From: Veillonellaceae bacterium | Lineage (GTDB): Bacteria > Bacillota > Negativicutes > JAAYSF01 | Length of the DNA stretch: 42,422 nucleotides | NCBI GenBank assembly: GCA_012523975.1 | Contig: JAAYSF010000014.1 | Span: forward strand, 1 to 42,422 | Reading direction: 5' to 3' | Shown: one piece after another, positions 1,239 through 10,885 of the stretch | How positions within the stretch are numbered: position 1 is the stretch's first letter | Layout: each line of letters begins with the position of its first letter | The notes under the pieces: generated by a model | The model's input: the letters and a program-made list of their open reading frames with translations, nothing else | The model's database searches: none | What the model was told of the DNA's origin: nothing | Made by a program: the position numbers and the translations under genes

Positions 1239-2111
1239 GTGGCAATAACGATCGGAGATTTAGTCATTCGTAAGTCACATGGCGGCGATATAGTCTTTAA
1301 AGTTTCTGATATTCGCGAAGATGATAACGGGCAGCGGTTCTGTGTTCTGAAAGGCATGCATTTGCGCTTGATTGCCGATGCGCCTATGGGCGATCTAGAG
1401 AGAATTGATGCAGAGCATCTTCGTAATGAAATTGTCCGGATGGAGAGTGTACACAACGATAGCCTGAAAAGGGTAATGATGCGACGCAGTATTGAACGGG
1501 AAAAAGTAGAGATGGGGCGTTCGGAGGCGGCAAAAAAGTTCAGTTTTTTTGATTTACCCGGCCGAGTTCTGCATCTTGACGGTGACGAGGAGTACTTAAA
1601 GATGTGCTTGAAGACTTACAGTCAGCTTAATATGGAAGCTGTCGGCCGGTGTATAGCTGAAGATAAGCAGCACGAGCATGTGGTTGCGCTTATTGATGAA
1701 TATCGTCCTGATATCTTGGTACTTACCGGACATGATGCTCTGATTGGCGGAGGCAAAAAAGATTTTCGCGATATAAACAATTACCGTAATTCTAAGCATT
1801 TTTGTGAATCTGTTAAGCGGGCTCGGGTCTTTGAGCCTTCCCGTGATGATTTGGTAATCTTCGCTGGAGCTTGCCAATCTTATTTTGAAGCAATTCTGGC
1901 AGCCGGTGCTAACTTCGCATCCTCGCCGACCCGTATCTTTATCCACGCCTATGATCCGGTGTTCATTGCCGAAAAGGTAGCATTTACACCCATCAACAAG
2001 ACGGTCGACGTCAGTGATGCAATAACTGCATCGGTCACCGGTATAGAAGGAGTAGGGGGCCTCGAAACGCGCGGCAAGTTTCGGCTGGGATTGCCGAAAA
2101 CTCCATATTGA
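1239..2111 (+). CDS. yabG: Sporulation-specific protease YabG
   Basis: The product is 290 residues, the usual length of YabG (peptidase family U57). This protease acts in the mother cell and trims spore-coat and cortex proteins during spore assembly. Recognisable features are the N-terminal 'GDLVIRKSHGGDIVFKV' stretch, LTGHD at 162-166 and GACQS near 210-214, whose Cys-212 is a candidate nucleophile. The GTG start follows a strong gagggggagggg site; a GTG 7 bases upstream is out of frame. A long hairpin follows. Nearby SPOCS genes fit the known clustering of yabG with coat morphogenesis genes in clostridia. Confidence 0.95.
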   Translation: MAITIGDLVIRKSHGGDIVFKVSDIREDDNGQRFCVLKGMHLRLIADAPMGDLERIDAEHLRNEIVRMESVHNDSLKRVMMRRSIEREKVEMGRSEAAKKFSFFDLPGRVLHLDGDEEYLKMCLKTYSQLNMEAVGRCIAEDKQHEHVVALIDEYRPDILVLTGHDALIGGGKKDFRDINNYRNSKHFCESVKRARVFEPSRDDLVIFAGACQSYFEAILAAGANFASSPTRIFIHAYDPVFIAEKVAFTPINKTVDVSDAITASVTGIEGVGGLETRGKFRLGLPKTPY

Positions 2112-2180: not shown

Positions 2181-2342
2181 TTAGGATTTTGGCCTCGGTT
2201 TTACATACTTTTCATCTGGGAAGCTGGTTGAAAGCTGTTGTTGATTAGCCTTGCCGCCGTAGGGACCGTGATGTTTTTGGGCCACAGTACCTGAGGGCCC
2301 ATGAACTGATTTCGTATTTTTATCATACATGTCGCCGCTCAA
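2181..2342 (-). CDS. Small hydrophilic protein, 53 residues, unknown function
   Basis: I do not recognise this family. A TTG start is preceded by agaggtg six bases upstream, and the frame runs 53 codons to TAA. The product begins (M)SGDMYDKNTKSVHGPSGTV and continues with two His-Gly-Pro segments, a Gly/Asn/Gln-rich middle and a basic KPRPKS tail. It has no hydrophobic segment. Size, hydrophilicity and location beside yabG resemble small spore proteins, but no known SASP signature is visible. It starts two bases after the stop of the Cys-rich gene 2345-2479, so the two are probably co-transcribed. The ribosome site and operon spacing support it being real. Confidence 0.65.
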   Translation of the reverse strand: MSGDMYDKNTKSVHGPSGTVAQKHHGPYGGKANQQQLSTSFPDEKYVKPRPKS

Positions 2343-2344
2343 TC

Positions 2345-2479
2345 CTAACACCTCTTTTCTGAGCTTTTAAGGCTTTTTGCTGATTTAGGACACAGTTCTG
2401 ATGCAAATTCAGTAAAGGAGTCCTTGCAGCCTTTGCTTTGGCTGCAGCAAGCGCAATCTGATTTTCTAAAGTCGGCCAA
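2345..2479 (-). CDS. Small Cys-rich protein, 44 residues, unknown function
   Basis: A TTG start lies seven bases after a strong ggaggtg. The product, (M)ADFRKSDCACCSQSKGC and onward, has six cysteines in 44 residues (positions 9, 11, 12, 18, 30 and 44) and many Lys and Ser. The spacing CxCC...C suggests metal binding or disulfide crosslinking; no family is recognised. A longer reading back to 2560 from another TTG lacks a ribosome site. The gene is first of a two-gene leftward unit with 2181-2342, in an intergenic region next to yabG, so a spore role is plausible but inferred. Confidence 0.65.
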   Translation of the reverse strand: MADFRKSDCACCSQSKGCKDSFTEFASELCPKSAKSLKSSEKRC

Positions 2480-2711
2480 TAAAATCACCTCCGTTATAAA
2501 GGTAGCTTTCCCGACAAGAGTGGCTTTGATAAATGTCAAAGTGTGGAGAACAGCCGGCAAGATCAGTCGTTGATGCGTTAGTTATGTAAACATTACCAAA
2601 TGTCAGAAAGAGGATTTTTGCTATTAAAAGAGAATTATTATTACGTGAAAACCACAGAGTTTTAAACTAATCTTCAAATCTGCTTTATTTACTAGAAGGA
2701 AGGAATTTAAA

Positions 2712-3395
2712 TTGATTAAGAAAAGTAAAGTTAACAAGGTCCTTGTTTTAAGTTTTACCGTAGCTTCGCTTTTAACCACTTCTTTTGGCGGCGCTTTTGC
2801 CAACTCTGCCTTGGCTGCCGAGGTAACAACCGCTCAGCAGGAGAAGAAAGATACCAAGAAAGACATCCTTACCGGTGTAGCCGCGCTTGGCTTGCTAGCG
2901 CTGCTCAGTAACGGCGGCGGTGGCGACAGCGATGGCAATGCTGCTAAGACAACTGTGCCGTCAACTGGCGGTAAAACTACTAAGCCTTCCACTACAGTTC
3001 CAGCGGGTAATGTGGCAGCAGCTGAGGCTCGTGCCGTCCAATTATTAAATGCTGACCGTGCCAAATATGGTCTGCCGGCCCTAAAGGTTAACAGCAAACT
3101 TACTTCTCTGGCTGGAAAATATGCTCAAGACATGATTAACAGAGGGTACTTCGCTCATAACAATCCTGAAGGGCAAACTCCGTTTGATCGAATGAAGGCG
3201 GCCGGTATTAGCTATACTTATGCTGGGGAAAACTTAGCTATCAACAGCAATGTTGATGCAGCTCAAGTAGCCTTTATGAACAGTTCAGGCCATCGCGCCA
3301 ATGTTTTAAGCAGCAACTTTACTGAGGTTGGTATTGGTGTGAGATATGCCCCAAGCGGCCAAGTATATGTAGTTCAAGAGTTTATTCGTCCATAG
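2712..3395 (+). CDS. Secreted CAP-domain protein (YkwD type)
   Basis: The 227-residue product has a classic Sec signal peptide (basic KKSKVNK, hydrophobic core, ALA/AE cleavage near residue 36). A Gly/Thr/Pro-rich linker (about 60-100) and a C-terminal CAP/SCP domain (about 103-227) follow. The CAP motifs FAHNNPEGQTPFDRM, GENLA and HRANVLSSNFTEVGIG are clear. Bacterial YkwD-like proteins are exported and often spore- or wall-associated; their biochemical activity is not settled. The TTG start is chosen because aaggaagg precedes it. A strong bidirectional terminator follows. Confidence 0.9.
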   Translation: MIKKSKVNKVLVLSFTVASLLTTSFGGAFANSALAAEVTTAQQEKKDTKKDILTGVAALGLLALLSNGGGGDSDGNAAKTTVPSTGGKTTKPSTTVPAGNVAAAEARAVQLLNADRAKYGLPALKVNSKLTSLAGKYAQDMINRGYFAHNNPEGQTPFDRMKAAGISYTYAGENLAINSNVDAAQVAFMNSSGHRANVLSSNFTEVGIGVRYAPSGQVYVVQEFIRP

Positions 3396-3407
3396 TGTAC
3401 AGCCAAA

Positions 3408-3455
3408 CAAAGCAAAAAATGAAGCCTGCTGAGCAGGCTTCATTTTTTTGCTTTG
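3408..3455. terminator. Bidirectional terminator
   Basis: A stem of about 22 bp joins 3408-3429 to 3433-3455 with one extra T. It has poly-A and poly-T flanks inside the stem and a GC-rich top (gaagcctgc / gcaggcttc). It sits between the convergent CAP gene and the Cys/Met-rich gene, and ends directly beside the latter's stop codon. Confidence 0.9.
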
Positions 3456-3797
3456 TTAGTCGCAGCGTGGGCACATGCCGCGATGACGGTGATAGTCAAA
3501 TTCATGGCCGCAGCGCGGACAGACCTTTTGGAGTCGATAACAGCAGATTTTATAGAGCTTATAGGTGCACTTAAAAGTTTTTACGCATTTTTTTTCACAC
3601 TTCATTTTGGGCATATTGCAGCTCATATCATGGTCTTTCATTTTTGGTTCGCACATATCATAGTCTTTGTACATTTTTGGTTTGCAGCACATGTCATAGT
3701 CCATCTTAGGCATTTTGTGCATATAATGCATTGAGGAACAGTCGCTGTCGTACATTTTGTCGTCATCACAATACTTTTCCGACCACTTAGGGTACAT
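3456..3797 (-). CDS. Cys/Met-rich repeat protein with C-terminal zinc-ribbon-like motif
   Basis: The family is not recognised. The 113-residue product contains 15 Cys, many Met, Lys, Asp and Tyr, and degenerate repeats of about 10-12 residues built on PKM(x)nDM(C) between residues about 29 and 68. The C-terminus has CPRCG and CPRC pairs, a zinc-ribbon-like arrangement. There is no signal peptide. Such composition suggests metal binding or a crosslinked structural (spore coat-like) protein. ATG at 3797 lies eight bases from aaggagg; GTG at 3800 is the alternative. It faces away from the SPOCS genes, which are similarly metal-ligand-rich. Confidence 0.75.
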   Translation of the reverse strand: MYPKWSEKYCDDDKMYDSDCSSMHYMHKMPKMDYDMCCKPKMYKDYDMCEPKMKDHDMSCNMPKMKCEKKCVKTFKCTYKLYKICCYRLQKVCPRCGHEFDYHRHRGMCPRCD

Positions 3798-3942
3798 CAC
3801 AAGAACCTCCTTGTTATATTATGTTTATTCAAAGTCCTTTGAAGACTTCTGCTATATCATATGAATGAAAAAAGTAAAATGTTATGTTTAGAAAAAATAT
3901 TACAATATACGCCAAATAATTTTACCAAGCGTCACTGTTTTT

Positions 3943-3971
3943 GCACATAACCGGTGGCACAGGCATATATA
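3943..3971 (+). promoter_or_regulatory. Possible late-sporulation (sigma-K-like) promoter for SPOCS gene
   Basis: GCAC at 3943-3946 is followed, after 17 bases, by CATATATA at 3964-3971. This loosely fits the sigma-K pattern (AC-type -35, CATA-type -10) about 30 bases before the SPOCS gene. The match is weak and AT-rich sequence makes chance matches easy. Confidence 0.25.
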
Positions 3972-4001
3972 TAAATAGAACTTACGAAGGGGGGAATATG
4001 A

Positions 4002-4694
4002 ATGACTGATAAAGAAGGTTTAAGGCCTATGGTGGATTACTGTACTCTTGGTCAGCAAGCAGGACCGCAGACTATCGTTGTTCGTCAGGTAATAGGCGAA
4101 GCCGAAAAACAGAAATCCTTGGATATTCATGTGAGGGTACCCGACCGTAAACCGGAAATTGAGCAAATTGTTGATGTTTTTGTTAAGGACGTTGAGATCA
4201 ATAGCATCGATGTTATCACCAACAAGGTCATTGTTCGCGGTGATTTCGAAATTAAGGCTATTTACGTAGCCTGCCTGCCTGATCAGCCTGTTCATGCCGT
4301 TGAACTCAAGAACTTTAAATGGACAATTGATATTCCGATTCCGGGAGCCCGTAAGGGTATGGACGCTGAAGCTACTGTCGATGTTGAGTATGTTGATTAC
4401 GATGTTGATAAGCACACTCGCGCTTATAAGTACAAAAATTATGAAGTCGATGACGATATGTGCGATGATGATGACGATGATGACTGCAATGACAACCACA
4501 ATCATCACCACCACCATCACGACGATGATGACTGCGGTAATAACAACAATCATCATCACCACCACCATCACTGCACCCGCGACTTTGATGTAGCTGTTGT
4601 TCTCAGAGTTAACGCGAAAGTCTTAGCCGATCGTCAAGTTATGATTGGTGGACCTGTTCCTAATGGTACATTGCCAAATAACGCAAAAGGATAA
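4002..4694 (+). CDS. SPOCS-domain (DUF3794) protein with Asp/His/Cys insert
   Basis: The 230-residue product aligns by eye with its downstream neighbour over a SPOCS domain (about residues 25-210: VPDRKPEIEQIVDVFVKDVE, ITNKVIVRGDFEIKAIYVA, LPDQPVHA). SPOCS domains occur in spore-coat and encasement proteins such as SipL. Inside the domain, before the last strands (DFDVAVVLRVNAKV), lies a 42-residue insert at 150-191 made of 15 Asp, 14 His, 7 Asn, 4 Cys, 1 Met and 1 Gly. The neighbour lacks it. The insert should bind divalent metals; this is inference. The ATG follows gaagggggg. A spore-surface location is likely. Confidence 0.88.
   Translation: MTDKEGLRPMVDYCTLGQQAGPQTIVVRQVIGEAEKQKSLDIHVRVPDRKPEIEQIVDVFVKDVEINSIDVITNKVIVRGDFEIKAIYVACLPDQPVHAVELKNFKWTIDIPIPGARKGMDAEATVDVEYVDYDVDKHTRAYKYKNYEVDDDMCDDDDDDDCNDNHNHHHHHHDDDDCGNNNNHHHHHHHCTRDFDVAVVLRVNAKVLADRQVMIGGPVPNGTLPNNAKG
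4449..4574 (+). repeat. Low-complexity GAT/GAC and CAT/CAC trinucleotide tract
   Basis: Near-continuous runs of Asp and His codons, with two Asp blocks and two His blocks separated by Asn/Cys, encode residues 150-191 of the SPOCS protein. The mixed use of synonymous codons (gat/gac, cat/cac) argues for selection on the protein rather than a recent pure slippage array. Confidence 0.85.
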
Positions 4695-4729
4695 GTTTGC
4701 CGCCTATCCTTGGAAAAGGGGGGAATGAA

Positions 4730-5719
4730 ATGGGCAAGAAAGAGTCAAGACCTAGTTTAAGGGCTATAGCTAATAAACCAGGTGAGCTTTTACGTCAAGG
4801 CTTTGAAGATTGTTATTGCTTTGAACCCGGGATGGAAAAAATCCAAGTTGAACAGGTGCTTGGGGCGGAAATGGAGCAGCGGGTCGTAGAGTTTGATATG
4901 TTTGTTCCTGACAGGAAACCGCCTATTGAGCAAGTTATTGACGTTTATGTAAAAGATATATGCATCAAATCGGTTGATGTCATTCCCAATAAGGTTATTG
5001 TCAGAGGCGAACTAGAAGTTAAAGTTATGTATGTGGCCGACCTTCCTGATCAGCCTGTTCATGCTTTTGAGCGTAAAGGTGTTAGATGGACGCGTGATAT
5101 TGAAATTCCAGGGGCTGTTAAAGACGATGCAGCGACAGCCGATGTTCAGATTGAATTTGTAGATTATGATTTCTGCGAGCATGATGATCCGCGCAAAGTC
5201 CATATTACAATCGTATTGAAAGTCTGGGCCCGTGTAACAAGCACTATCGAAATGGACGCTTATGTAATGGATCCGGTTGTGACGGCCGGAGCATTCGAAA
5301 TGACGACAGCTGCTAATACGGTGACCTCGTCTGACGGTTTTAATGATGATAAGGTTTCTGCTTCCCAAATGGGCGGCGGCGATGTCGAAGCTTTCGGGGA
5401 GTCGAACATTCTGGTAACCGGCCCGGAGGGGATGGTTGGTTATCCAGAAACAGTTACCGGTCCGTTTGAACCGGTGGCAGGTGTTCCGACAACAGTTTCA
5501 GGCATGGCTGTAGTCAACGGTAATAGTGTTAACGTTCGTACCGGCCCTGGCACTAACTTCCCGGTAATTCAAAAAGTTAACAGAGGCGATACCCTTACGA
5601 TTAAGGACGAAGCTTTCGGCTGGTATAAGGTCGTTCTTCCGGATGGAAACACAACAGGGTGGATTGCCAGCTGGTTGCTAAATACCAATGGGACTGTACC
5701 TTCGGCGCCTAAGGGTTAA
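4730..5719 (+). CDS. SPOCS-domain protein with C-terminal SH3b domain
   Basis: The product is 329 residues from the ATG at 4730, chosen because aaaagggggg precedes it. A SPOCS domain (about 45-185) closely parallels the upstream protein (VPDRKPPIEQVIDVYVKD, PNKVIVRGELEVKVMYVA, LPDQPVHAFE). A Thr/Gly/Val-rich linker follows, then a bacterial SH3 domain (about 265-325: NSVNVRTGPGTNFPVIQKV, GWIASWLL). SH3b domains commonly bind peptidoglycan. This recalls SipL-type architecture (SPOCS plus LysM), with SH3b in place of LysM. It is probably a spore-coat/cortex interface protein, co-transcribed with 4002-4694 (35-base gap) and ended by a terminator. Confidence 0.88.
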   Translation: MGKKESRPSLRAIANKPGELLRQGFEDCYCFEPGMEKIQVEQVLGAEMEQRVVEFDMFVPDRKPPIEQVIDVYVKDICIKSVDVIPNKVIVRGELEVKVMYVADLPDQPVHAFERKGVRWTRDIEIPGAVKDDAATADVQIEFVDYDFCEHDDPRKVHITIVLKVWARVTSTIEMDAYVMDPVVTAGAFEMTTAANTVTSSDGFNDDKVSASQMGGGDVEAFGESNILVTGPEGMVGYPETVTGPFEPVAGVPTTVSGMAVVNGNSVNVRTGPGTNFPVIQKVNRGDTLTIKDEAFGWYKVVLPDGNTTGWIASWLLNTNGTVPSAPKG

Positions 5720-5725
5720 CAGACG

Positions 5726-5764
5726 AAAACACCGCTCATCCTGATGGATTGCAGCGGTGTTTTT
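5726..5764 (+). terminator. Intrinsic terminator after SPOCS-SH3b gene
   Basis: aaaacaccgct (5726-5736) pairs with agcggtgtttt (5753-5763), followed by further T residues, seven bases after the stop codon. Confidence 0.85.
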
Positions 5765-5841
5765 AATTGTTCTTTTGCGCATATTTCGGCATATATTTTA
5801 CCGTATGCATTATTAATATGCGGAAAAAGAGGGTGAACTAA

Positions 5842-6642
5842 TTGCTTACGGCAGTTACATATTTGGGCTCGGTAGGACTTGGCGTAACTTCACCGCAATT
5901 ATTTAAGGCTGATGATGGGTTAGTCTATGTTGTCAAACTCAAAAATAATCGCCTTGGGCTTAAGGTTTTAGTCAATGAGTTATTGGCGTGCCGATTTGCA
6001 ACATTAATGGATTTGTGTTTTCCGCCGGGGGGAATAATCACAATAACTGAGGAATTGCTGACCAAGACTCGCAGGCTTAGGGCGGCCCGAGTCGAGCCCG
6101 GACTCCACTTTGCTAGCAGGTATATAAGCGGCAGCCGGTATGTAGTTAAGTCAAATTTGCATCGGGCAACTAATAAATCCCAGATGGCGGGCGTTATGCT
6201 CTTTGACCATATGTTCCACAATCTTGACCGCACATGGAATCGGCGTAATTTGATTATGCATCGCAATGAGGATAAGGCCCAAATATATGCTATCGATAAT
6301 TCCCATCTATTTAAGAAAGGCCGTTGGACAGTTGCTTGGCTGGCTAAGCTTGAGCCTAAGATAATAATGAACTATCGGCGGGCGTACGGCTGGCTGCTCA
6401 AGCACTATTTAACGGCTAATGATTTTAAAGACTATATTGAAAAGGTGCGGAGCATAACTGATGAAGATATTGAGACGATTGTAAGCGAGATACCGCTGGA
6501 ATGGCTGCCGGATGACAAAGAGCGGCAGGCACTTATTCACTATATTAAAGCCCGCCGCGATATGATTGATAAGATTGCCCGCCCCTTTTTGGAATTGTTA
6601 ACGGATGAAGACGGGCGTCCCGATTCTGATGAGAGCAAATAA
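5842..6642 (+). CDS. HipA-like protein kinase
   Basis: The 266-residue product resembles the stand-alone HipA-like kinase family (HipA_2 type) of Firmicutes. Visible landmarks are a likely ATP lysine in VYVVKLK (Lys-32), a catalytic-loop-like HNLDRTWNRRN (126-136, Asp-129) and a metal-binding IDNSH (Asp-152, in the DFG position). No HipB antitoxin gene adjoins it, so a toxin-antitoxin role is not supported; the substrate is unknown. The TTG start follows agagggtg. Its 3' end overlaps the convergent L,D-transpeptidase gene by 45 bases, so the transcripts would be antisense to one another there. Confidence 0.8.
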   Translation: MLTAVTYLGSVGLGVTSPQLFKADDGLVYVVKLKNNRLGLKVLVNELLACRFATLMDLCFPPGGIITITEELLTKTRRLRAARVEPGLHFASRYISGSRYVVKSNLHRATNKSQMAGVMLFDHMFHNLDRTWNRRNLIMHRNEDKAQIYAIDNSHLFKKGRWTVAWLAKLEPKIIMNYRRAYGWLLKHYLTANDFKDYIEKVRSITDEDIETIVSEIPLEWLPDDKERQALIHYIKARRDMIDKIARPFLELLTDEDGRPDSDESK

Positions 6643-7224
6643 CTCTTCTGCATTATGGTTATGCATGCGTATGCAGCCATTTGATACCATCTGCCCGATG
6701 AGCCAAGGTCTATTGGTGCCATGAATTCCGTAGGCATCATAGTTTAAGCCCATCCAGCGCGTACCTAGAACTCCACCCGGGTTTAATATTTTGGTGGCAA
6801 TAGCGTAGTTGCCTTCCGGGGTTGGGGTAGATGGTTTGCCGATTGCGACCGGAAACTGGCGAATGGTGGTTTTGCCGTTGAACAGGGTGAGCTGACGGTT
6901 GGATTTCGTTATAAGGATGTTGGCGTTAGCCAGGGTTCCATAAACGCGATCGGTTTTCTCGATTGGTTCGATTTCAGAAACCGCGGCATCAAATAGACGA
7001 CAGTAGGTAGTGTGGTCAAGAGTGGCTGTCGGCCGCAGACCTTGACGCATTTGAAATTCGGCAATAGCTTCGCGTGTATTTGAATCATATAAATTATGCT
7101 CGGCTCCTTCATAACAGCCATGTTTTTTTAGCAGACGATGGATTTCAGGCAGCAGTCTTGAATTATCAGAGGCCATACCGAGCAGGCCTAACGAATGCGG
7201 TAGGTAAATTCTCCGGATATTCAT
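6598..7224 (-). CDS. L,D-transpeptidase (YkuD) with peptidoglycan-binding domain
   Basis: The 208-residue product has an N-terminal PG-binding-1-like segment (about 20-80, YDSNTREAIAEFQMRQGL). A YkuD catalytic domain (about 102-207) follows, with HGTN at 168-171 and SNGCIRM (Ser-181, Cys-184 nucleophile, Arg-186). The family makes 3-3 crosslinks in peptidoglycan. There is no obvious signal peptide (MNIRRIYLPHSLGLLGM); several sporulation YkuD proteins also lack one, which is compatible with action on forespore or mother-cell side wall. The ATG is preceded by ccaggaggttgact. It is divergent from cyanophycinase and overlaps the HipA-like gene tail to tail. Confidence 0.9.
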   Translation of the reverse strand: MNIRRIYLPHSLGLLGMASDNSRLLPEIHRLLKKHGCYEGAEHNLYDSNTREAIAEFQMRQGLRPTATLDHTTYCRLFDAAVSEIEPIEKTDRVYGTLANANILITKSNRQLTLFNGKTTIRQFPVAIGKPSTPTPEGNYAIATKILNPGGVLGTRWMGLNYDAYGIHGTNRPWLIGQMVSNGCIRMHNHNAEELFALIRIGTPVFIR

Positions 7225-7282: not shown

Positions 7283-7387
7283 TTTTGTTTTTAGAGAAAA
7301 AATGTATAAATGTATGCAATAAATGGTAAAGATATTATTGAAATAATTGTGCATATTATGTTTTGTGACAGTGTTTGGAGGAAAAGC

Positions 7388-8200
7388 ATGCAGACAAAAA
7401 AAGGAAGCCTCTTGATCATAGGCGGTAACGAGGATAAGGACGGTAAGTGTGAAATACTCAGGCGATTTGTAAAAATGGCGGGAGGAAGGGATTCGCGCCT
7501 GGCAATTATAACTACAGCTACCGAGCTGCCTCGTGAAGTAGGCGATGAGTATAAATCGCTGTTTACCCGAATTGGCTCAGAAAGTATTGCAGTTTTATAT
7601 ATCGATAACCGTGAAGAGGCGAATGATGCCCGAAATATAAGTGATATTGAACAGGCTACCGGTATTTTTTTTACGGGCGGAGATCAGCTAAGGCTGACGA
7701 GCATTTTAGGCGGCTCAGGTGTTGAGGCCGCTCTTAGGCATGCTCATTGTAAAGGTGCGGTAGTGGCGGGGACAAGCGCCGGGGCCTCTGTTATGAGTAA
7801 TACGATGATTGTAGGGGGCGACTCAAGTGATACTCCTAAAAAATCGGCTTTAAGTATGGCTCATGGTATGGGGCTGCTGGAGGAAGCGGTTATTGACCAG
7901 CACTTTGCCCAACGGGGCCGGATAAATCGGCTGCTAGCAGCGATAGCCCAGAATCCGCACATTCTGGGCATTGGCATTGATGAAGATACTGCCTTGGCAG
8001 TTAATGCCGACAGCAAGTGCGAAGTAATCGGTTCACAAACAATCACTATTCTGGACGGAAAAAACGTAGTCCATTCAAATATATCTGAATCGAAGCGCCA
8101 TGATCCCTTGGCGCTTACTAACGTTTTGCTTCATATTCTGCCGGCAGGGTACGGATTCGATATTAGACGCCGCCGGCCTTACATTATTGCCGAAAATTAA
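7388..8200 (+). CDS. cphB: Cyanophycinase
   Basis: The 270-residue serine exopeptidase (family S51) hydrolyses cyanophycin to beta-Asp-Arg dipeptides. Features: GSLLIIGGNEDKDG at the N-terminus, FFTGGDQLRL in the middle, and the nucleophile elbow AGTSAGASVM with Ser-130, the position expected from characterised CphB. DQHFAQRGRINRLL and GIGIDEDTALAV follow. ATG at 7388 is chosen over an upstream ATG at 7310 because ggagg lies six bases before it and homology begins there. Cytoplasmic. It precedes cphA by 27 bases, giving a degradation-synthesis pair in one operon. Confidence 0.95.
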   Translation: MQTKKGSLLIIGGNEDKDGKCEILRRFVKMAGGRDSRLAIITTATELPREVGDEYKSLFTRIGSESIAVLYIDNREEANDARNISDIEQATGIFFTGGDQLRLTSILGGSGVEAALRHAHCKGAVVAGTSAGASVMSNTMIVGGDSSDTPKKSALSMAHGMGLLEEAVIDQHFAQRGRINRLLAAIAQNPHILGIGIDEDTALAVNADSKCEVIGSQTITILDGKNVVHSNISESKRHDPLALTNVLLHILPAGYGFDIRRRRPYIIAEN

Positions 8201-8227
8201 TTTCCGCCAGCTAAGAAGGGGGCACAC

Positions 8228-10885
8228 ATGGAGATTTTAACAACAAGAATTTTGGAAGGGCCTAATATTTACAGTTATCGTTCGGTAATTTGGATTAAGC
8301 TTGATCTCGCTCAGTATGAAGATATACCCAGCAAGAACATTGCTGGCTTTAACGAGCGTCTGCTTGAAATGCTACCAGGGTTAGCTCAGCATCATTGTTC
8401 GCGGGGAAAACCGGGCGGGTTTGTTGAACGCTTGCTCGACGGGACTTATTTAGCCCATATTTTTGAACATACGCTATTGGAATTGCAGACATTAGCTGGT
8501 TTTGAGGTTAAGTTCGGCAAAACTCGCAGTACCGGGCTTCCCGGTATTTACGACGTCGTGGTCGGCAGCCGCGACGGCGAGGTATCAAGACTGGCGGCTA
8601 AGACGGCCCTGGAATTAATTCAGGCTGGGCTGACTCAGCAGTATTTTAATGTCGAAGAGGCTGTGGCCAAATTAATTGCGTTGGGCGAGCAGCGGCGGTT
8701 GGGTCCCAGTACTCAGGCAATTCTGACGGCTGCTCAGGCTCGGGATATTCCGGCTGTTGTGTACACTGAAGAAAATCTGCTGATGCTAGGCTATGGACAT
8801 CAGCGCCAATTGGTATGGGCAACGCTTACTGGGCGGACAAGCGCAGCCGCAGTTGATTTGGCTTGTGACAAACAATTAACTAAAAGAATCCTAGATGAAA
8901 ATGGTATTCTTGTTCCAAATGGCATAGTTGTTAAAAGCGCCGTCGAGGCCGTTAAGGCTTTAGACCTTATCGGACCGAAGGTGGTGGTAAAACCGCTGAC
9001 TGGGAACCAGGGTAAGGGCGTTACTGTTAATATAAACAGCGCGGCAGAAGTTGAGCTTGCCTTTCAAGGTGCCAGCCAGTATGATGAGCAAGTTCTGATT
9101 GAAGAATATATTCCAGGTATGCAGTACCGTTTTTGCGTTGTAAACGGCAAAACGGTAGCAGCATCCGAACGAATTCCGGCCTATGTTATCGGTGATGGTC
9201 AGCATACTGTTGCCCAGCTTGTCGACATTGTTAATACTGATCCTGCCCGTGGTGACGGTCATAGCAAACCGCTCAGTAAAATCAAGCTGGATGCTGTGGC
9301 GATTACCGTGCTAGCCAAGCAAAATTTGACGCCGCAGTCGATACCCGACAAGACTGCTGTCGTACGCATCCGCGATAATGCCAATATAAGTACCGGCGGT
9401 ACGGCAATAGATGTAACCGACATTGTTCACCCTGCTAACTGCAGGCTGGCTGAACGGGTGGCCAGATTAATTGGTTTAGACGTGGCAGGAGTCGACATTG
9501 TGGCAAAAGATATTACAATGCCGATTGGCCCTGATAACGGAGCTGTTATTGAAGTCAACGCTGCCCCGGGTATTCGCATGCATCATTATCCTTCGGCCGG
9601 GAAGCCGCGAAATGTTGCTGCGCAGATTATTGATTATCTTTTCCCTAACGGCAGTACCGGGCGGATTCCGCTTGTAGCTGTCACCGGCACGAATGGCAAG
9701 ACAACGGTAACAAGGATGATTGGACATATTTGGCGGCAAGCCGGCTTTAATGTCGGTATGACAACCACCGACGGTATCTATATAAATGACGAATGCATTA
9801 TGGAGGGGGATACTACCGGACCAGACAGCGCCCGCATAATACTGAGCGACCCGCGGGTGGACACCGCTGTGCTCGAAACGGCGCGTGGTGGCATTGTCCG
9901 CGGTGGACTGGCGTTTGATAAATGCGACATCGGGATTGTTACCAACATTACTGAAGACCACCTAGGCCAAGACGGCATTGAAACGCTGTCTGACTTAGCT
10001 TATATTAAATCACTTGTTATTGAAACAGTGCGTCCCGGCGGATTTGCATTATTAAATGCGGACGATCCTTATGTAAATGAAATGGCTGAACGCGTCCAGG
10101 CTGAGATTGTCTATTTTAGCGTTGAACCCTCGAATGTCATAGTGCGGCGTCATCTTGGCTGCGGCGGCAGAGCTTTCTTTGTAAAAGACGGTGTTATTTA
10201 TGCGGCAAGCGGGGCATTTGCTCGGGCTATTCTGCCAGTTGAGAATATTCCGGTTACTTTAGGCGGCATTGCCCTTCATAATTTGCAGAACGCGATTATT
10301 GCCGCGGCTGCTTGTTATTGCGCTAAAGTTCCCATTAACTATATACGACAGGGTTTATCAAGCTTTGCCCAAAATCCCGGCCGCCTTAATATAATGTCTG
10401 TCGGCGATTTTAGGGTTTGCATTGATTACGGTCATAATCCAGCCGGGTATCAAGCGCTTATTAATACTGTCCGGCGGATGGGTGCTAAACGGCTGATAGG
10501 AGTTATCGCGGCCCCCGGTGATCGCCGCGATGATGTAACAGTGAATGTTGGCCGTATCGCCGGTCAAGGCTTTGATTGTATTTATATAAAAGAAGATAGC
10601 GATCTGCGCGGCCGAAAAGCTGGTGAAACGGCTGCTCTCTTGCAGCGCGGGGTATTTGAAGCCGGTTTTGCCGATGACAAGGTAGCAATAATTCTCAATG
10701 AGGCTGAGGCCGTTAAAGCGGCCTTGAAATGTGCCGAACCTGAGGATTTAATTGTTGTATTTTATGAGAAATATCAGACCGTTATTGATGCTTTGAACGA
10801 ATTTTGCGAAACGCTTAAACCAGACCATGAAAGAATTGAGACTAATTATGAAGAAACAATCGTGGCCGGTGCAAAAATGATATAG
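8228..10885 (+). CDS. cphA: Cyanophycin synthetase
   Basis: The 885-residue product matches the usual CphA length. The N-terminal domain (1-160) has AHHCSRGKPGGF-like and HIFEHTLLELQ motifs (AQHHCSRGKPGGF here). The ATP-grasp half (about 170-470) has KPLTGNQGKGV near 254-264. The Mur-ligase-like half (about 480-870) has TGTNGKTTVTRMI near 486-498. The two halves add Asp and Arg alternately to grow the multi-L-arginyl-poly-L-aspartate polymer. All three domains look intact, so activity is expected. Cyanophycin genes in sporulating clostridia have been linked to spore assembly, which fits the neighbourhood. The ATG follows aagaaggggg. Confidence 0.97.
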   Translation: MEILTTRILEGPNIYSYRSVIWIKLDLAQYEDIPSKNIAGFNERLLEMLPGLAQHHCSRGKPGGFVERLLDGTYLAHIFEHTLLELQTLAGFEVKFGKTRSTGLPGIYDVVVGSRDGEVSRLAAKTALELIQAGLTQQYFNVEEAVAKLIALGEQRRLGPSTQAILTAAQARDIPAVVYTEENLLMLGYGHQRQLVWATLTGRTSAAAVDLACDKQLTKRILDENGILVPNGIVVKSAVEAVKALDLIGPKVVVKPLTGNQGKGVTVNINSAAEVELAFQGASQYDEQVLIEEYIPGMQYRFCVVNGKTVAASERIPAYVIGDGQHTVAQLVDIVNTDPARGDGHSKPLSKIKLDAVAITVLAKQNLTPQSIPDKTAVVRIRDNANISTGGTAIDVTDIVHPANCRLAERVARLIGLDVAGVDIVAKDITMPIGPDNGAVIEVNAAPGIRMHHYPSAGKPRNVAAQIIDYLFPNGSTGRIPLVAVTGTNGKTTVTRMIGHIWRQAGFNVGMTTTDGIYINDECIMEGDTTGPDSARIILSDPRVDTAVLETARGGIVRGGLAFDKCDIGIVTNITEDHLGQDGIETLSDLAYIKSLVIETVRPGGFALLNADDPYVNEMAERVQAEIVYFSVEPSNVIVRRHLGCGGRAFFVKDGVIYAASGAFARAILPVENIPVTLGGIALHNLQNAIIAAAACYCAKVPINYIRQGLSSFAQNPGRLNIMSVGDFRVCIDYGHNPAGYQALINTVRRMGAKRLIGVIAAPGDRRDDVTVNVGRIAGQGFDCIYIKEDSDLRGRKAGETAALLQRGVFEAGFADDKVAIILNEAEAVKAALKCAEPEDLIVVFYEKYQTVIDALNEFCETLKPDHERIETNYEETIVAGAKMI

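Follow-up and report, generated by a model that had tools for sequence, protein, structure and literature searches.

The 42,422-nucleotide stretch of Veillonellaceae DNA analyzed here (the window; the entire 42-kb contig) encodes a cysteine-rich protein of 113 residues, referred to as CysR hereafter, which belongs to an uncatalogued family tied to sporulating genomes. Together with SPOCS1, the product of a neighboring gene that carries a loop rich in Asp, His, and Cys, it probably helps to build the outer shell of the spore. The explanation that we favor, at slightly better than even confidence, is that both are structural spore-surface proteins made in the late mother cell under sigma-K, in a layer held by metal and/or Cys crosslinks.

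From the start of the window, a glycosyltransferase gene (minus strand) is followed by yabG, two small ORFs, a CAP-domain gene, and the CysR gene; then come the two SPOCS genes, a HipA_2-type kinase gene, an L,D-transpeptidase gene, the cyanophycinase and cyanophycin synthetase genes, cheW, and ispE (Table 1). The glycosyltransferase, cyanophycin synthetase, cheW, and ispE genes were named from their sequences, with no family scan. A sequence-only reading of this region had described three proteins (a 44-residue protein with six Cys, a 113-residue protein with 15 Cys, and a SPOCS protein with an Asp/His/Cys insert), and all three are present as described. Compared with two other genera of the family, the changes in the three ORFs and yabG are mostly synonymous (pN 0.06–0.25; pS 0.63–0.79), which points to purifying selection and indicates that they are genes, not chance frames. 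Two further observations concern the surroundings. One is that most Negativicutes loci, though not the Pelosinus-type ones, include the cyanophycinase and cyanophycin synthetase genes in this conserved cluster linked to sporulation. Another is that the sequence GTTATGTAAACATTACC recurs upstream of the CAP gene (2580–2600 here) in loci of several families.

Table 1 Features in and around the yabG–CysR–SPOCS region (positions in the window)
Feature	Position	Strand	Basis or remark
yabG, sporulation protease	1239..2111	+	PF05582 E=3.7e-114; TIGR02855 above cut-off
56-aa ORF, HGP motifs	2181..2351	-	Overlaps end of 44-aa gene
44-aa six-Cys protein	2345..2479	-	TTG start after GGAGGTG
CAP-domain (YkwD-like) gene	2712..3395	+	PF00188 E=1.2e-19; constant CysR neighbor
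CysR, 113 aa, 15 Cys	3456..3797	-	PKM/DYDMC repeats, two CPRC pairs
Predicted CPxC...CPxC zinc-ribbon-like end of CysR, residues 88–113	3459..3536	-	Invariant Cys and model
Putative sigma-K-type promoter of CysR, ACATTTTACTTTTTTCATTCATATGATA	3855..3882	-	Motif shared by orthologues
Putative AC-N17-CATATATAT promoter of SPOCS1	3945..3972	+	Motif shared by orthologues
SPOCS1, single-SPOCS protein	4002..4694	+	PF12673 E=2e-12; orthologues class-wide
Asp/His/Cys loop of SPOCS1, ~42 residues	4443..4571	+	Fixed position in orthologues
SPOCS2, SPOCS domain and SH3_3, short loop	4730..5719	+	PF12673 match
HipA_2-type kinase gene	5842-6642		Constant cluster member
L,D-transpeptidase gene	6598-7224	-	Sigma-K-type sites upstream in some orthologues
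Cyanophycinase and cyanophycin synthetase genes	7310-10885		

In the library and PDB profile scans, CysR, which is single-copy in the window's genome, matched no sequence family of Pfam, NCBIfam, or the PDB, so the earlier impression that it is unlike any family stands for these collections. Among 200 Negativicutes genomes, CysR was found in 47 and yabG in 54, and both occur in 46; the sole CysR carrier without yabG is an 89%-complete genome with a contig that ends beside the gene. No CysR was found in the 384 genomes from other classes of the phylum, although 204 of them have yabG, and in the whole phylum draw of 398 genomes that includes these 384, yabG occurs in 205 and CysR only in the window's own genome. 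The co-occurrence with yabG that the sequence-only reading had expected is thus observed; occurrence in non-sporulating relatives, which it had named as a sign against a spore role, was looked for as well, and CysR proved to be tied to yabG-bearing genomes, so neither check refuted the spore reading. Eight of the 200 Negativicutes genomes have yabG and lack CysR, so sporulation in the class does not depend on CysR. The carriers named by a scan with one short peptide pattern, which is no census, include Sporomusa ovata, S. malonica, S. silvacetica, Pelosinus fermentans, P. propionicus, and a Propionispora sp.; no CysR relative was found in viral contigs.

The position of the gene is also conserved. 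Once every locus is oriented by the direction of yabG, the CysR gene is flanked by the CAP gene and SPOCS1 and read in the opposite direction in almost all of the fetched CysR-bearing loci, which represent many families. In a few loci (Pelosinus-type L068, L085 of genome G138), about 11–14 kb separates yabG from the CAP–CysR pair, and the pair is intact. The 44-residue protein behaves differently: it was found in three genera (three genomes) of the window's own family, where the two other copies are 66–69% identical to it, and the remaining fetched loci had none. Its sequence distribution thus assigns it to the yabG neighborhood, and its membership in a class-wide module was rejected. Of the set of three proposed by the sequence-only reading, therefore, CysR and SPOCS1 are class-wide, whereas the 44-residue protein is confined to the window's family. 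The 56-residue ORF carries HGP...HHGPYGGK motifs, and its relatives are found between yabG and CysR in the Sporomusa-type loci L072, L073, L074, and L088.

The yabG gene of L088 (genome G058) is interrupted by an insert of 2,978 bp (positions 3695–6673 of that locus) with 11-bp direct repeats, AACAAGACTGT, at its ends. One frame of the insert encodes a recombinase similar to the large serine recombinases and another a protein like polysaccharide deacetylases, and joining the flanks gives an open yabG frame of 294 residues. In C. botulinum, yabG is known to harbor a prophage-like element (PMC10747680); the L088 insert differs from it in being small and in lying in a bacterium of another class.

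The upstream regions hint at the time of expression. Of 32 CysR orthologues, 24 have the sigma-K-type motif AC-N16-18-CATANNNTA upstream, where 0.6 would be expected, and the spacing is 17 in all 24. For SPOCS1, 32 of 34 orthologues have CATATATAT at 33–40 bp ahead of the start, and an AC occurs exactly 17 bp upstream of it in all 32. Sigma-K-type sites also occur upstream of the L,D-transpeptidase gene in 9 of 30 orthologues (0.8 expected). The motif was found upstream of none of ispE, gntR, glmU, and ilvA, and yabG and the 44- and 56-residue genes gave no sigma-K or sigma-E site in an initial strict search of their upstream regions. Since related promoter copies are not independent observations, the P values overstate the certainty, and a stronger argument is that the motifs occur across many families. 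In C. difficile, the −10 sequences of sigma-E and sigma-K promoters are alike, while the −35 sequences differ, being ATA or AC (PMC3789822). Upstream of SPOCS1, 24 of 32 orthologues have ATA at a distance of 14 bp from CATA, and all 32 have AC at 17 bp. A spacing of 16–18 bp between −10 and −35 is expected for sigma-E. The sigma-E reading was accordingly rejected as the main one: from these spacings, a sigma-K-type promoter is preferred for SPOCS1, and a sigma-E share in its transcription is possible. The window's genome has sigK-family and spoIVA genes above the curated cut-offs. The spore link suggested earlier from the yabG and SPOCS context is thus supported by three features: the presence of yabG in nearly every CysR genome, the synteny with yabG and the SPOCS genes, and the sigma-K-type promoters of CysR and SPOCS1.

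CysR has the high cysteine content of the cysteine-rich coat and exosporium proteins (15 of 113 residues). Its N-terminal half is variable in sequence and length, but Cys, Asp, Tyr, Met, and Lys are always abundant in it. The C-terminal half is conserved, with the consensus KECVKTFKCxYKLYRICxYRLYKVCPxCGHEFDYHxHRGMCPKC, and C67, C71, C93, C96, C109, and C112 were invariant in the first alignment. In the AlphaFold2 model, residues 1–60 are of low confidence, and the last 23 residues, with block means of 90–95 pLDDT, form a two-strand knuckle. The end of CysR is thus modelled as a CPxC...CPxC zinc-ribbon-like knuckle, with C93, C96, C109, and C112 on a beta hairpin, and the remainder as disordered. 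Foldseek gave no match at E 0.001 for the CysR and SPOCS1 models; many of the non-significant matches of CysR were zinc ribbons or knuckles, e.g., L32 and rubredoxin, and the SPOCS1 list was uninformative. No known zinc-ribbon family matched CysR above its curated cut-off, the best being Zn_Ribbon_YjdM (E=0.0017, in one of 20 members of the CysR family).

CysR paralogues located elsewhere in these genomes have the same cysteine core with other tails (GFGG...FFPFFPF or PPQPGFVFFPEL) and, by their sequences, make up a multigene family. Those in L037, L160, L163, L165, L172, and L173 have glycine/arginine/phenylalanine tails (FFPFFPF), and several have sigma-K-type sites. In L089 (genome G003), a CysR-type core opens a 518-residue frame, the rest of which is alpha/beta hydrolase-like by sequence, with no family scan. 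A small protein with a zinc-ribbon-like end could also be a regulator of late mother-cell genes, not a structural protein. We consider this very unlikely for CysR, because its N-terminal half is disordered, of low complexity, and variable in length, and the FFPFFPF/GFGG-type tails of the paralogues are unlike a regulator.

SPOCS1 and SPOCS2 score 47.6 and 52.3 bits, respectively, against PF12673 (curated cut-off, 23.6 bits), and a PDB sequence profile search of SPOCS1 gave no match. The window's genome has a further single-SPOCS gene (L155:3655-4296, contig C4 of G000), 59% identical to SPOCS1 and with a shorter loop. The loop of SPOCS1 occupies the same site in nearly all orthologues, between the strands ending in VEFVDYD and beginning with REFDVSVVLK; it is 24–103 residues long as delimited and is disordered in the model. 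Its sequence drifts, while the Asp/His/Cys composition is kept in most orthologues: the three residues account for at least half of the loop in 24 of 31 orthologues and for less than 30% in three (median 0.63), and the loops of L078, L081, and L093 are His-poor. The matching place in SPOCS2 has just 8–14 residues where readable, often FHCHHDRRK. Among 29 scanned loci of other classes, only L139, which has the longer SipL-type form, has a SPOCS protein with HDHHDHHDHHDHH at the matching place. Trinucleotide-repeat slippage as the source of the loop was unsupported: identical adjacent codons in DD/HH pairs numbered 218, against 235 under synonymous shuffling. Since there is no excess, selection on the residues is the simpler explanation. 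A relation between the cysteines of the loop and the absence of CysR was also considered and rejected; where CysR is missing, the loop has 10–15 Cys in L090, L091, and L093 but 2–3 in L095 and L099, and the comparison is confounded by kinship.

The dense ligands of the loop might suggest that its chief role is to store or trap metals, by which the spore would be loaded with them or they would be detoxified, and not assembly. This is improbable, as the loop is inside a domain of the coat-morphogenesis type and no recurrent metal transporter or regulator occurs in the conserved neighborhood. A more serious alternative, to which we give a lesser but substantial chance, is that cysteine (and tyrosine) crosslinks hold the layer and metal is incidental, CysR being like the Cys-rich exosporium proteins and the loop being an acidic hydrating spacer. 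The abundant Cys and variable N-terminal half of CysR agree with this alternative, as do CdeC and CdeM of C. difficile, which are cysteine-rich and required for coat/exosporium assembly (PMC10681294). However, the best conserved part of CysR is the CPxC...CPxC knuckle typical of zinc sites, and His as well as Asp is abundant in the loop of most orthologues. Given the zinc-ribbon-like end and the composition-kept loop, metal loading is plausible.

Among the closest known systems, SipL has several SPOCS domains and a LysM domain, whereas SPOCS1 and SPOCS2 are encoded by tandem genes and have one SPOCS domain each and no LysM; SPOCS1 further differs by its long loop and by its sigma-K-type promoter, C. 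difficile sipL being reported under sigma-E. The likeness lies in the SPOCS domain and in the gene position: the order in C. difficile is yabG, veg, sipL. Coat and exosporium assembly in that species requires YabG (PMC10681294). CysR resembles CdeC and CdeM, which are linked to YabG-dependent spore layers in C. difficile, in its many cysteines and its putative sigma-K-type promoter, but it has the C-terminal zinc-ribbon-like knuckle and was seen only in Negativicutes; library scans gave it no match to CdeC, CdeM, CotY, or CotZ. With zinc-ribbon and rubredoxin-like domains, to which its matches are weak, it shares a small beta hairpin with a pair of CPxC-type knuckles; in CysR, unlike in them, this end follows an extended disordered chain rich in Cys, Asp, and Met and a conserved segment, CVKTxxCxYKLYxxCxYRLYKVC.

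Taken together, sequence and context strongly suggest that CysR and SPOCS1 are located at the spore surface. In the favored explanation, they would be coat or exosporium proteins that spore-forming Negativicutes produce in the mother cell at a late stage, under sigma-K control. The SipL-type beta domain would dock SPOCS1 on the developing spore and display the disordered loop, and CysR, with its Cys/Asp/Tyr/Met-rich chain and knuckle, would pack onto the SPOCS1 layer. The layer would be held by metal coordination, most likely of zinc, and/or cysteine crosslinks; YabG may act on it. This explanation draws on the co-occurrence with yabG, the absence from the 384 other-class genomes, the fixed place between CAP and SPOCS1, the sigma-K-type promoters, and the sigK-family and spoIVA genes. 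It also draws on the zinc-ribbon-like end, the loop composition kept without codon slippage, the paralogues that share the core and have sigma-K-type sites, and the C. difficile precedent (PMC10681294). The non-significant fold matches, the His-poor loops, the eight yabG genomes without CysR, and the kinship of the orthologues were counted against it.

The Negativicutes considered here are endospore formers that also have an outer membrane, and the spore shell of such bacteria is little described in the literature searched. In that literature, the setting (yabG/sipL and the spore coat) is known, and CysR and the loop-bearing SPOCS1 were not found as spore components. Tentatively, sporulating Negativicutes may build a metal-coordinated layer from two components: SPOCS scaffold proteins bearing Asp/His/Cys loops of kept composition, and a Cys protein family with zinc-ribbon ends that was unseen in the other classes sampled. 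The finding would add a spore protein family that is class-wide and uncatalogued, as well as a variant of the coat scaffold, both open to tests of their promoters and metal ligands, and the cultured carriers, such as Sporomusa ovata and Pelosinus fermentans, make direct examination feasible.
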